Shown: positions 30,510-34,466 of the stretch, piece by piece | Layout: each line of letters starts with the position of its first letter | How positions within the stretch are numbered: the first letter of the stretch is position 1 | Source: Planctomycetaceae bacterium | GTDB taxonomy: Bacteria; Planctomycetota; Planctomycetia; Pirellulales; UBA1268 | Length of the DNA: 37,779 bases | Assembly (NCBI GenBank): GCA_947449135.1 | Contig: CANFQO010000027.1 | Location: 1-37,779 of the forward strand | Direction of reading: 5' to 3' | Translations under genes and position numbers: made by a program | Notes under the pieces: model-generated | Told to the model about the DNA's origin: nothing | Databases searched by the model: none | The model's input: the letters and a program-made list of their open reading frames with translations, nothing else

Positions 30510-31436
30510 ATGAGCACGACTGAACCAGCCGCAGAACGCACCGCCCTGCTTCGCTCCCTGCGCTGGAAGAAGTTTCCCGTCCTCGACGACGGGTTTGTGG
30601 CACTGGTGGACTGCATGGGCGACGACGGCTCCGTCGTGCAGGCCGCACGGGTCAGCTACGGCGAAGGCACCCGCAAGGTCAGCGACGATCGCCAACTGAT
30701 CCGCTATCTCCTGCGGCACGCCCACACCACCCCCTTCGAGATGGCGGAGCTGAAGTTCGTGGTCCGAGTGCCGATGGACTGCTGGCGGCAGTGGATCCGC
30801 CACCGCACGGCCAGCGTCAACGAATACTCGACCCGGTATTCGCTGGCGATCGACTCGATGCAGTCGACCCACGACGACGAGTGGCGAACGCAGGCGGCCA
30901 ACAACCGCCAGGGCTCGGCCGGCATGCTGCCGCGAGCGGCGGGGCACAACCTCACAGCCGCGGAGCAGGAACTGCAGAGCCTGGCGCGGCGGGTCTATGA
31001 GGAACGGCTGGCGGCAGGCACGGCGCGGGAGCAGGCCCGGAAGGATCTGCCGCTCTCCACCTACACCGAGGCCTATTGGAAGATCGACCTCCACAATCTG
31101 CTGCATTTCCTCGCGCTGCGAATGGATCCCCACGCGCAACTCGAGATCCGCCGCTACGCCGAGACGATCGGCCAGCAGATCGTGCAGCCGCTCTTCCCGG
31201 CCGTGTGGGAGGCATTCGTCGACTACCGGCTGGAGGCCATGCGGCTCACGAAGCTCGACCGCGATGTCATCCAACGGCTCGCGGCCTCCGCAAAGCATGG
31301 ACTGCCCGTCAGTCACGCCGACTTCCTGGCAGCCCAGGATCCGTCATGGGTCGCCTTGGAACGCTGCCGCGAACGGGACGAATGCCTGGCCAAGCTCATC
31401 GACCTTGGCCTCGTCCGCCCCACCGCATCTGCCTGA
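30510..31436 (+). CDS. thyX: Flavin-dependent thymidylate synthase
   Basis: A 308-aa ThyX, which makes dTMP from dUMP using FAD, NADPH and methylene-tetrahydrofolate, in the cytosol. The diagnostic ThyX motif RHRTASVNEYSTRYS starts at Arg97. YLLRHAHTTPFEMAELKF (66-83) and a C-terminal stretch DLHNLLHFLALRMDPHAQ are also family features. It is longer than small bacterial ThyX (about 220-250 aa) but within the range for long forms. No thyA is visible. The ATG at 30510 is consistent with GAGCCGAGCG upstream. It sits in a plus-strand run from the 86-aa gene to the CaMKII-AD gene. Confidence 0.96.
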   Translation: MSTTEPAAERTALLRSLRWKKFPVLDDGFVALVDCMGDDGSVVQAARVSYGEGTRKVSDDRQLIRYLLRHAHTTPFEMAELKFVVRVPMDCWRQWIRHRTASVNEYSTRYSLAIDSMQSTHDDEWRTQAANNRQGSAGMLPRAAGHNLTAAEQELQSLARRVYEERLAAGTAREQARKDLPLSTYTEAYWKIDLHNLLHFLALRMDPHAQLEIRRYAETIGQQIVQPLFPAVWEAFVDYRLEAMRLTKLDRDVIQRLAASAKHGLPVSHADFLAAQDPSWVALERCRERDECLAKLIDLGLVRPTASA

Positions 31437-31526
31437 TCCGACCGCTCCAGAACGCCCCCGCTTCGTGCCGTTTGATCGTATCGCTCGTGCCCTCGTCTCT
31501 GTTGTTACCTTGGGAGTTGCATCCAT

Positions 31527-31943
31527 ATGGCATCCGCCGCTGAAGACGTGCTCGAACTCAACCGCCGCCTGCTGACGGCCGTCGCCTCGGGTGACTGGAA
31601 AACCTATTGTCAGCTCGTGGCAGAGGACATCACCTGCTTCGAGCCAGAGGCCCGCGGGCATCTCGTGGAAGGACTCCCCTTCCACGAGTTTTATTTCAAG
31701 CTCCCCACACCGGCCAGCGATGCGAAGTCGCCTCCTCCCGCCAAGCCGGTGACGACGACGATGACCAGCCCCACGGTCAAACTCCTCGCTGCAGATGTGG
31801 CGCTCGTGGCCTATGTCCGTCTCACGCAGACCCTCGACGACGCCGGCAAGCCGGTAACCCGAAGCTCCGAGGAGACGCGGATCTGGCAGAAGCAGGGCGG
31901 CCATTGGAAGCACGTCCACTTCCACCGCAGCCTGCCGTCTTAA
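31527..31943 (+). CDS. CaMKII association-domain family protein (SnoaL/NTF2-like fold)
   Basis: 138 aa. The sequence matches my memory of the calcium/calmodulin-dependent kinase II association domain (DUF4440/NTF2-like): VLELNRRLLTAVASGDWKTY, CFEPEARGHLVEGLPFHEFY, VALVAYVRLTQTLDDAGKPV, SSEETRIWQKQGGHWKHVHFHRS. Bacterial stand-alone versions form rings, as in the kinase hub, and their ligand is usually unknown. No kinase is adjacent. A variable middle loop (PASDAKSPPPAKPVTTTM) is Pro/Thr-rich. GGGAG lies 10 bp upstream of the ATG at 31527. The last codons and stop are duplicated 118 bp downstream. Confidence 0.85.
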   Translation: MASAAEDVLELNRRLLTAVASGDWKTYCQLVAEDITCFEPEARGHLVEGLPFHEFYFKLPTPASDAKSPPPAKPVTTTMTSPTVKLLAADVALVAYVRLTQTLDDAGKPVTRSSEETRIWQKQGGHWKHVHFHRSLPS

Positions 31944-32083
31944 CGCGAAACATCGCATCCTGCGATTTTCGCTTGGCAAACGCAGTTTGCTGGTACTGCG
32001 CGTCGCATCCATGCGACGCAGATGTGGGCGGGTTCGCTCCGAACACGTGCTGCCGTCTTAACGCGAAACATCGCATCCTGCGA
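31932..32083. repeat. 34-bp direct repeat duplicating the end of the CaMKII-AD gene
   Basis: The 34-bp segment 31932-31965, which includes the last three codons (LPS) and TAA, is repeated exactly at 32050-32083, a period of 118 bp. Sequence inside the unit is also partly duplicated: GTGGGCGGGTTCGCTCC and GTGGGCGGGTTCACTCC. A dyad GCGTCGCAT-CC-ATGCGACGC lies at 31999-32018. Confidence 0.85.
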
Positions 32084-32183
32084 CGCAGGCGTGGGCGGGT
32101 TCACTCCAGACGCTTGCCACCGAAGCACCGTCGTACCCTGATCGCAACGAGACGGAAACCGCTCTCCGCTGCGAACCCGGTGT

Positions 32184-32210
32184 CCCCCGGCTTCCGCCGG
32201 GGGCTTTTAT
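32184..32210 (+). terminator. Terminator-like hairpin 1 of the array
   Basis: A perfect 8-bp stem, CCCCCGGC (32184-32191) and GCCGGGGG (32196-32203), with a TTCC loop is followed by CTTTTATT. This is a typical intrinsic-terminator layout for the plus strand. Confidence 0.7.
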
Positions 32211-32392
32211 TCAACCGGTCGGCCACCTTGTTTGGTCACGTCACCCCACCATGGAATAAAAGCCCGGAGCGGAAGCGATGGGACTCCGGGGATGAACACC
32301 ACCTCGGTTGCCACGCCCTTACGGCCAACTGCCCTCCCCCGCGCTCGAAAACCGACTGAAATGGAAACCGGTAGCCGCTGCAAACGCGGTGT

Positions 32393-32420
32393 CCCCCGGC
32401 TTCCGCCGGGGGCTTTTATT
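32393..32420 (+). terminator. Terminator-like hairpin 2 of the array
   Basis: An identical perfect stem, CCCCCGGC (32393-32400) and GCCGGGGG (32405-32412), with a TTCC loop is followed by CTTTTATT, 209 bp after hairpin 1. Confidence 0.7.
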
Positions 32421-32457
32421 CAAGCGACAAGCTACCGCACACGGCCGTGCCACCCAC

Positions 32458-32491
32458 GAATAAAAGCCCGGAGCGGAAGCGACGGGACTCC
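32458..32491 (-). terminator. Opposed, imperfect terminator-like hairpin
   Basis: On the minus strand CCCGTCGC-TTCC-GCTCCGGG, with a 2-nt internal mismatch, runs into CTTTTATT. A weaker sibling lies at 32254-32285 (minus). These face the plus-strand hairpins and could stop transcription coming from moeA. Confidence 0.5.
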
Positions 32492-32631
32492 ACTCATGAA
32501 CACCGCCTCGGTTGCCACGCGCATACGCGGCAACCGACTGAAATCGCAACCGGTCGCCGCAGCAGACCCACTGTCCCACGGCTCCCGCCAGGGGCTTTTA
32601 TTCAAGCGACATGCTTCATCACGCGCGTCCG

Positions 32632-33873
32632 CTACCGCAGGACGACCTCGACCTCTTCGCCTGCCTCATACCGCCGGCCGCCGGCTGGGAGAGCGAGCAG
32701 GCCGGCCGCGCCGGCCAAGCCCAGCAGATCAGATGAGCCCGACCACGGCAGCGGTGTTGCAGCCAGTGCATCGCCTGACGCATCGAGCCGGCAGGGAAGA
32801 TAGACCGGCCGGTCCGCCGCAGCCTTGGCCGGACCGGTGAGGCGGGCCGGGCGGCGAGGAAGATGCCAGGCCTCGCGGGGCCGGCCAGCGAGGATCGCGA
32901 TTGCGGGCCGCGCGAAGAGCTCGAAGCAGACGAGACTGCTCGCTGGGTTGCCCGGCAGTCCGAAGACGAGTGTTGGCGTAGCGCCCTCACGCTGGAGCAT
33001 GCCGAACCAGACGGGCTTGCCCGGCTTCAGCCGCACCTTGTGAAAGATCTTCTCGACGCCGCACTGTCGGAAGATCTCCGGCACGAGGTCGAGGTCGCCC
33101 GCCGACACGCCCCCCGACAAGACGAGCACATCGGCCGCCAGCCCCTGAGCGACGGCGGCGCGGATCGCCTCCGGCCGATCGGCCGCGATGCCCAGCGGAA
33201 TCGGCTCGGCCCCGAGTAGGTGCACGGCGGCGGCGATCATCGGGCCGTTGGAGTTACGGGTCTGTCCGAAGGCCGGCACGGCGGCGGGCGGCACGAGCTC
33301 GCTGCCGGTGGAGAGGATCGCCACGCGAACCCGAGGCATGGCGGTCACATGCGTGGCCCCAGCCTCTGCCGCCAGACCGATCTCGGCGCTGCCGAGCGTC
33401 ATGCCCACTGCCAGTACCTCCTGACCACGGCGAAATGCCGCTCCCTGCCTGGCGATGTGTTGGCCGGCGCGAAACTGGTCGTCCCGTAGGCGAACCCTGC
33501 CGCCGGCATGGACGCGGGCCGTGTCATCCACGGCCGCCTCCACCGGCACGATCGCGTCGGCGCCCGCGGGCACAGGCGCCCCGGTCATGATCCGGCCGCA
33601 GGCACCGCGGGCGATCGTCAGCGACGTCACATCGCCGGCCGCGAGATCGACCGCCACGTCGAGTTCGACGACCTCGGCTGAACCGGCGGAAAAATCGTCA
33701 CCCCGCACGGCGAAGCCATCCATCATCGCCCGATCCCAGGGGGGCGAATCGACATCCGACACGACCGGCGCCGCCAGAGCGCGTCCGCAGGCATCGAGCA
33801 AAGACATCCGCCGCCGCGGCAGGGGGGCAGCGGCCCGCTCGATGCGTGCAATCGCCTCCGGCAGGTCGATCAT
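32632..33873 (-). CDS. moeA: Molybdopterin molybdenumtransferase
   Basis: A 413-aa MoeA, which inserts molybdate into adenylylated molybdopterin to make Moco. The N-terminal lid domain has PPWDRAMMDGFAV (44-56). GRIMTGAPVPAGADAIVPVE, ILSTGSEL, LSGGVSAGD and GLPGNPASSLVCFELF are the MoeA/MogA-type motifs. The length is standard. The ATG at 33873 overlaps the stop of the upstream glutaminase gene by 4 bp (ATGA), so translation is probably coupled. That is an odd pairing of Moco and chorismate-derived pathways. Downstream lies the terminator-like array. No other Moco gene is in the window. Confidence 0.95.
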   Translation of the reverse strand: MIDLPEAIARIERAAAPLPRRRMSLLDACGRALAAPVVSDVDSPPWDRAMMDGFAVRGDDFSAGSAEVVELDVAVDLAAGDVTSLTIARGACGRIMTGAPVPAGADAIVPVEAAVDDTARVHAGGRVRLRDDQFRAGQHIARQGAAFRRGQEVLAVGMTLGSAEIGLAAEAGATHVTAMPRVRVAILSTGSELVPPAAVPAFGQTRNSNGPMIAAAVHLLGAEPIPLGIAADRPEAIRAAVAQGLAADVLVLSGGVSAGDLDLVPEIFRQCGVEKIFHKVRLKPGKPVWFGMLQREGATPTLVFGLPGNPASSLVCFELFARPAIAILAGRPREAWHLPRRPARLTGPAKAAADRPVYLPCRLDASGDALAATPLPWSGSSDLLGLAGAAGLLALPAGGRRYEAGEEVEVVLR

Positions 33874-34466
33874 GCCGGCACCGTGCCCGTCTTCAGGAAG
33901 GCCCGTAGGAGGTCGTAGCCTGCCGGCGTCAGAAAACTCTCCGGATGAAACTGCACGCCGTAGACGGGCAGCGTGCGGTGGCGGATCGCCATGATCTCGC
34001 GGCTGCCGTCGGGTGCGGTCGACCATGCGTCCACCTCAAAGTCGCGCGGCAGCGTGGGCGGATCGATGACGAGGCTGTGATACCGGGTCGCCTCGATCGG
34101 GCTTGGCAACCCAGCGAAGAGCCCCCGTCCAGCATGCTCGATCCTGTCGACCTTGCCATGCATCAGCCGTTGCGCCCTCACGATCGTGCCGCCGAACACC
34201 TGCCCGATCGACTGGTGGCCGAGACAGACACCGAGGATCGGCATCCGCCCCGCGAACCGTCGCACCGTCTCGCAGGAGATGCCGGCCTCATCGGGCGTGC
34301 ATGGTCCCGGCGAGATCACGATGTGGCTGGGAGACTTGGCGGCAATCTCGTCGCCTGTGATCTCGTCATTGCGATGCACCTCGACTGGAATCTCTGGGCA
34401 GATTTCACCGAGCCGCTGGACGAGATTCCAGGTGAACGAATCGTAATTATCGATGAGGAGGATCAT
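33870..34466 (-). CDS. Anthranilate/aminodeoxychorismate synthase glutaminase subunit (TrpG/PabA)
   Basis: A 198-aa class I glutamine amidotransferase that supplies ammonia to a chorismate-using partner. N-terminus MILLIDNYDSFTWNLVQRLG. Catalytic triad: Cys81 in GVCLGHQ, His174 and Glu176 in QFHPESFLT. The oxyanion-type ISPGPCTPDEAG (51-62) is typical of TrpG/PabA. The sequence does not separate TrpG from PabA, and no TrpE or PabB is adjacent, so no symbol is given. No strong ribosome-binding site precedes the ATG at 34466. It overlaps moeA by 4 bp. Confidence 0.93.
   Translation of the reverse strand: MILLIDNYDSFTWNLVQRLGEICPEIPVEVHRNDEITGDEIAAKSPSHIVISPGPCTPDEAGISCETVRRFAGRMPILGVCLGHQSIGQVFGGTIVRAQRLMHGKVDRIEHAGRGLFAGLPSPIEATRYHSLVIDPPTLPRDFEVDAWSTAPDGSREIMAIRHRTLPVYGVQFHPESFLTPAGYDLLRAFLKTGTVPA

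Follow-up and report, generated by a model that had tools for sequence, protein, structure and literature searches.

The window, that is, the whole 37,779-nucleotide stretch of a Planctomycetaceae genome (the host) that was analysed, carries at positions 32150–32620 an array of three hairpin arms on the plus strand (A) and two opposed arms on the minus strand (B), located between plus-strand genes and the convergent gene moeA. The A arm is composed of the hairpin CCCCCGGC-TTCC-GCCGGGGG followed by the tail CTTTTATTC. The B arm reads GAATAAAAGCCCGGAGC-GGAA-GCGAYGGGAC on the plus strand, with CTTTTATTC as its minus-strand end. The third A arm is degenerate, retains its tail and is not faced by a B arm; the A arms are spaced 209 and 182 bp apart. 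The features are listed below, with the A–B spacers defined from the unit alignment.

30510–31436, plus strand: thyX, the upstream neighbour (TIGR02170, 175 bits; PF02511)
31527–31943, plus strand: gene for a CaMKII_AD domain protein, the plus-strand gene nearest the array (PF08332, 131 bits)
32184–32212, plus strand: A arm of unit 1, hairpin 32184–32203 and tail CTTTTATTC 32204–32212; fold −18.9 kcal/mol
32213–32253, no strand: A–B spacer of unit 1
32254–32291, minus strand: B arm of unit 1 with tail; predicted fold −13.4 kcal/mol
32292–32392, no strand: linker between units 1 and 2, of the longer and rarer kind
32393–32421, plus strand: A arm of unit 2, hairpin 32393–32412, then tail CTTTTATTC; fold −18.9 kcal/mol
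32422–32457, no strand: A–B spacer of unit 2
32458–32495, minus strand: B arm of unit 2 with tail; predicted fold −13.6 kcal/mol
32496–32572, no strand: linker separating unit 2 from the third A arm
32573–32603, plus strand: third A arm, degenerate, with tail; fold of 32573–32595, −12.0 kcal/mol; no B arm after it
32632–33873, minus strand: moeA, the convergent neighbour (PF03453, PF00994, PF03454)

The 22-mer CTTCCGCCGGGGGCTTTTATTC, searched at up to 3 mismatches, matched five positions of the window, all inside the array (three A arms and two B arms, the latter both at 3 mismatches), and had no match in 100 shuffles. Coordinates, folds and this control agree with the hairpin units that a preliminary description had reported at the locus.

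A separate pair of repeats lies at 31932–32122, where a 34-bp exact direct repeat, with copies 118 bp apart, begins within the final codons of the CaMKII_AD gene and is accompanied by a second repeat of 44 bp. The core of the direct repeat, GCGAAACATCGCATC, occurs 5 times in 0.50 Mb at up to 2 mismatches (reversed control, 0), and may represent another small repeat family.

Predicted folding and termination

A terminator scan of 31000–34000 returned 11 sites against 1.6 expected. On the plus strand these included each of the three A arms; on the minus strand neither window B arm was flagged. The median predicted fold is −19.3 kcal/mol for the A arm and −8.1 kcal/mol for the B arm on its terminating strand. 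With its G+C-rich hairpin and T-rich tail, the A arm fits an intrinsic terminator, and termination of plus-strand transcripts is a plausible prediction. In its usual form the B arm is a hairpin with a two-by-two internal mismatch, in which the motif CnGA (n, variable base) comes before the inner loop and a T-tail follows on the minus strand. This arm may serve as a minus-strand terminator less effective than A, a case that is weaker because the scan missed both B arms and because the second of them has its own tail paired in the best predicted fold. Of the four convergent gaps in the window, as defined by a simple gene caller, one holds the repeat and three are without it, so the repeat is not the sole way of ending such gene pairs.

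A genome-wide repeat family

In the host assembly, 3.69 Mb in 169 contigs, the A core is matched 110 times when up to 2 mismatches are allowed, and the B core 102 times when up to 3 are allowed; a few of these 102 are A arms. At up to 3 mismatches the A core has 160 matches, some B arms among them, since B differs from A by 3 mismatches. Reversed control patterns of the A and B cores had no match in the host genome. The TTCC-containing 22-mer is present in 43 exact copies in the host and in 2–3 copies in each of four congeners (G001–G004), and the A core was absent from all 54 genomes examined outside the host genus. A model search in which up to 150 candidates were scored per genome gave 127 hits for the host and 31, 81, 56 and 22 for G001–G004, respectively; owing to the near-palindromic unit, some places are counted once on each strand. 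The view that the array belongs to an amplifying repeat is thus borne out genome-wide; further copies, whose absence had been named as its refutation, are many. A literature search of titles and abstract openings found no mention of this repeat. In a separate observation, a record titled Candidatus Kuenenia stuttgartiensis (CAMCQY01; L066 and L068) has the same match positions as G001, assigned to the host's genus by genome search, and the title looks wrong.

Alignment of 62 A–B units yielded a firm unit consensus. These rows were obtained from 80 printed units by removing 9 read from the wrong strand together with 13 others, many of them near-copies of a neighbour and left out without a fixed rule, and by adding 4, two of which are the units of the window. 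The foot of the A arm is CGGAGT in 40 of the 62 units and CGGTGT in 12, and the minus-strand foot of the B arm is mostly CCGGTGT. Of the 62 B arms, 59 have the CnGA motif ahead of the inner loop (CGGA in 51, CTGA in 6 and CAGA in 2), and neither a GTAG nor a CGTC tag was found at the arm ends of the aligned units. The preliminary description was right that the first two units are each faced by an inverted hairpin; its account of B as a more degenerate hairpin needs one correction, as the B arm is more than a decayed A and has a 62-unit consensus of its own.

A second form of the B arm, CCCCGGAC-GGAA-GTCCGGGG, is a perfect palindrome and rare in the host, where it was seen at L121 305–420, L124 3481–3595, L250 and L256. 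The same form is found at the site of the largest host array in G003 and G004, and it may be the older one.

Placement between genes

Genes were called with a simple codon-usage caller in 0.50 Mb of DNA around the copies. The sampled host DNA contains 86 clusters of arms, 84 of them outside called genes and 2 inside, both in contig stretch L130; a further 13 are without a known flank, leaving 71 classifiable. Convergent-gene gaps hold 51 of these 71, tandem gaps 19 (10 and 9 by sense) and a divergent gap 1. Background gene pairs of the same DNA (n = 342) comprise 71 convergent, 74 divergent and 197 tandem pairs, and the convergent excess is significant by a binomial test (51/71 against 71/342, p = 4e-20), the base rate being that of the DNA fetched around the repeat. 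A Fisher test against neighbouring gaps (51/20 against 6/150) gave p = 2e-27, but such gaps are rarely convergent beside a convergent gap, and the binomial test is preferred. Within convergent gaps the clusters lie close to the gene ends, with a median distance from cluster edge to gene end of 60 bp and 85 of 102 distances below 100 bp.

Of 82 clusters, 14 lie no more than 500 bp from the end of a contig, the expected share being 0.046. The repeats seem to break assemblies, and array lengths may be underestimated owing to this proximity to contig ends.

Tandem units and growth of arrays

The A and B arms alternate, with the order A on the plus strand and B on the minus strand kept in 129 of 143 neighbouring arm pairs. 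Two or more A arms are present in 30 of the 86 clusters, and the usual tandem period is 156–160 bp (26 of 30 A–A distances outside the window array). A–B spacers of neighbouring units have a median similarity of 0.94 (17 pairs, of which five score 0.76 or less), and those of different arrays one of 0.50 (2,597 pairs). Since spacers are alike within arrays and unlike between them, arrays are likely to grow mainly by copying of a neighbouring unit.

Tandem REPIN arrays that include flanking sequence are described in the passages cited for Pseudomonas fluorescens SBW25 (PMC3116915). With this precedent and 30 of 86 clusters containing several A arms, the multiplication at one site, which had been called unusual, is not so. 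The earlier picture of an amplifying repeat that happens to terminate transcription therefore stands in its first part, given the genome-wide copies, and its second part is plausible as a prediction.

The same gaps in the congeners

Three host array sites were looked up in G001–G004 through a neighbouring gene, independently of any repeat in the congener. The thyX/moeA gap contains arms of other variants in all three congeners in which it can be read, the contig of G004 stopping short of it. At the site of the largest host array, which has four units, arms are present in all four congeners, as one A/B pair each in G003 and G004 and as another type in G001 and G002. The third site has arms of another type in G001, a single arm in G004 and no arms in G003; its neighbour gene was not found in G002. 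Arms thus occupy 9 of 10 readable congener gaps, and in none of these gaps does the host's own repeat type form an array of several units. The preliminary description had proposed comparing the number of units in close strains; among the species compared at these sites, unit numbers are not the same. Of the loci picked up with the A pattern, 12 of 24 lie at a host array, and of those picked up with the model, 8 of 24; these counts are biased towards similar copies.

Transposase genes in the genus and beyond

Class 3 of the Y1 family has been described, from few sequences and with palindromes identified by manual inspection, as having a Y----Q signature and flanking palindromes with a CnGA foot (passages cited from PMC6006769). 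A gene for a 165-residue HUH protein of this kind is found in G002 (L171, 1321–1818; the start codon is our choice). Each side of the gene carries three A-type arms and one B-type arm, in which TTGC replaces TTCC, and one B arm overlaps the gene end. The 20-mer of this A variant occurs in 25 exact copies in G002 and in none of the other four genomes of the genus. For this arm type, the link to a transposase comes from this one gene. A second class-3-like gene of G002 (on contig C69) and its relative in G001, which lies at contig ends, have other arm types and are located at the site orthologous to a host array (L132). All three aligned congener proteins contain HVH and YVLECQ or YVTECQ (Y----Q), and Pfam Y1_Tnp scores of 22.8 and 21.9 bits fall just below the cut-off of 23.

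A profile built from the three proteins, one of them partial, matched 19 of 59 genomes at E ≤ 0.01, some of them weakly. At this threshold no class-3-like gene was found in the host assembly, and there was no match in G003 or G004. By the REPtron definition of a cognate transposase, a sister variant of the repeat flanks the gene in G002, and no such gene was found in the host.

Repeats common to both flanks are present at 14 of 17 class-3-like loci tested. For this test 20 of 30 profile loci were taken (L232–L235 and L241–L246 were left out), and 17 remained after removal of L218 and L228, each without a flank, and of L225, with wrong gene bounds; L172 was an artefact and L094 was without a flank. 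The number of 12-mers shared between flanks was 0 at L226 and 2 at L227 and L239. Separately, the class-3-like loci L217–L240, from several genera of the order, often have AGCCCGA-type repeats in both flanks, and each of these scattered genes may have its own repeat type.

Origin and role of the array

The array is best explained as one site of a species-amplified repeat of BIME/REPIN type, most likely served by a class-3 HUH/Y1 (IS200/IS605-like) transposase, a reading to which we assign a probability of about 0.58. The repeat, the alternation of its arms, their excess between convergent genes, the species-specific variants and the class-3-like gene of G002 with its sister variant are all evident from the sequences. 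The repeat is outside the GTAG and CGTC super-families; it probably belongs to the class-3 type. A class-3 enzyme would have spread it through single strands, as the congener suggests, and the host gene would since have been lost, or be absent from the assembly. Tandem units would have arisen by local duplication. The A arm would stop plus-strand transcripts; the B arm might stop minus-strand transcripts less well, and might be the arm recognised by the transposase.

The same array could instead be a strong terminator without a transposase, copied by recombination or gene conversion and selected at convergent gene ends. Placement in convergent gaps (51 of 71), the failure to find a class-3-like gene in the host and the likeness of tandem copies within arrays are in keeping with such an origin, and arms in 9 of 10 congener gaps, mostly of other variants, are what selection fixed to a site would give. 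Against it, the transposase gene of G002 has sister variants at its flanks, such genes elsewhere are flanked by other variants, and linkers outside the hairpins are conserved among dispersed copies, beyond the needs of a bare terminator. We consider this origin possible but unlikely.

It is improbable that the array represents a structured non-coding RNA, or that it is a DNA uptake signal, with the terminators incidental in either case. A 163-nucleotide stretch of another array does fold better than its shuffles (z = −3.4), but the four Rfam matches in 31400–33000 are all far below gathering scores and are read as chance, and none of 18 consensus pairs shows change on both sides, a covariation test that decides nothing because the consensus is a long A:B hairpin whose pairs hardly vary. 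The passages cited (PMC1852404) describe terminators made up of uptake signals in Neisseria and Pasteurellaceae and generally give such signals 1,000 or more copies; this possibility was set aside on copy number and placement, with the copies here in the low hundreds and all but 2 of the 86 clusters outside called genes.

Least probable of all is a GTAG-type REP system driven by a RAYT-like gene of the host on contig C148, the single host Y1_Tnp gene (60.1 bits to NF047646, cut-off 80), which was set aside because its locus has no A or B arm, although one side is barely seen as the contig ends 46 bp beyond the gene start, and has inverted TGAATTTCCGC copies on both sides instead, as a G003 relative has an inverted AAATGGGGACGGGA pair, and because the arms lack the GTAG tag. 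This gene (L094, 1195–1878), whose contig stops within the far TGAATTTCCGC copy and whose G003 relative is L169, looks like a TIR-flanked type of tyrosine transposase.

The preferred reading, a BIME/REPIN-type repeat served by a class-3 transposase, leads to a more speculative proposal, which we regard as doubtful. The class-3 transposases of the genus may spread ready-made terminators in which a mismatched CnGA-bearing B arm, recognised by the enzyme, is joined to a perfect A arm that stops RNA polymerase, with convergent gene ends as a lasting niche in which repeat types replace one another. If this were true, a mobile repeat would be carrying and renewing the function of termination at convergent ends. 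A single genus provides a natural series of the same convergent gaps with different repeat types and unit numbers, and G002 holds a transposase gene together with the matching repeat variant, so that short oligonucleotides and reporters could test how the repeats are recognised, their replacement at fixed sites and their use as terminators.

Comparison with known systems

The array shares with bidirectional intrinsic terminators its G+C-rich hairpins and T-rich tails on both strands, but differs in having two separate hairpins, B being the weak one, in being tandem and in being dispersed as one family. Parallels are also found in the BIME/REPIN elements of E. coli and Pseudomonas, which, in the passages cited (PMC3733652, PMC8266576, PMC3116915), are likewise short extragenic palindromes with two inverted arms in alternating order, tandem arrays that include flanks, a preference for gaps downstream of genes and a separate transposase gene. 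Unlike the GTAG-type elements, the host repeat has neither a GTAG nor a CGTC tag; its arms are one perfect and one mismatched, both with T-tails, and no cognate transposase was found in the host assembly. The E. coli enzyme is described as needing a mismatched stem (PMC8266576, passage cited), which the conserved two-by-two mismatch of the B arm recalls as a resemblance only. Relative to the class-3 TnpAY1 systems, the transposase genes were found in congeners and not in the host. The traits in common with the published account, as far as it is cited here (PMC6006769), are the Y----Q signature, occurrence in Planctomycetes, gene-flanking palindromes repeated throughout the genome and a CnGA tetranucleotide, which in the host's B arms may or may not correspond to the published foot.
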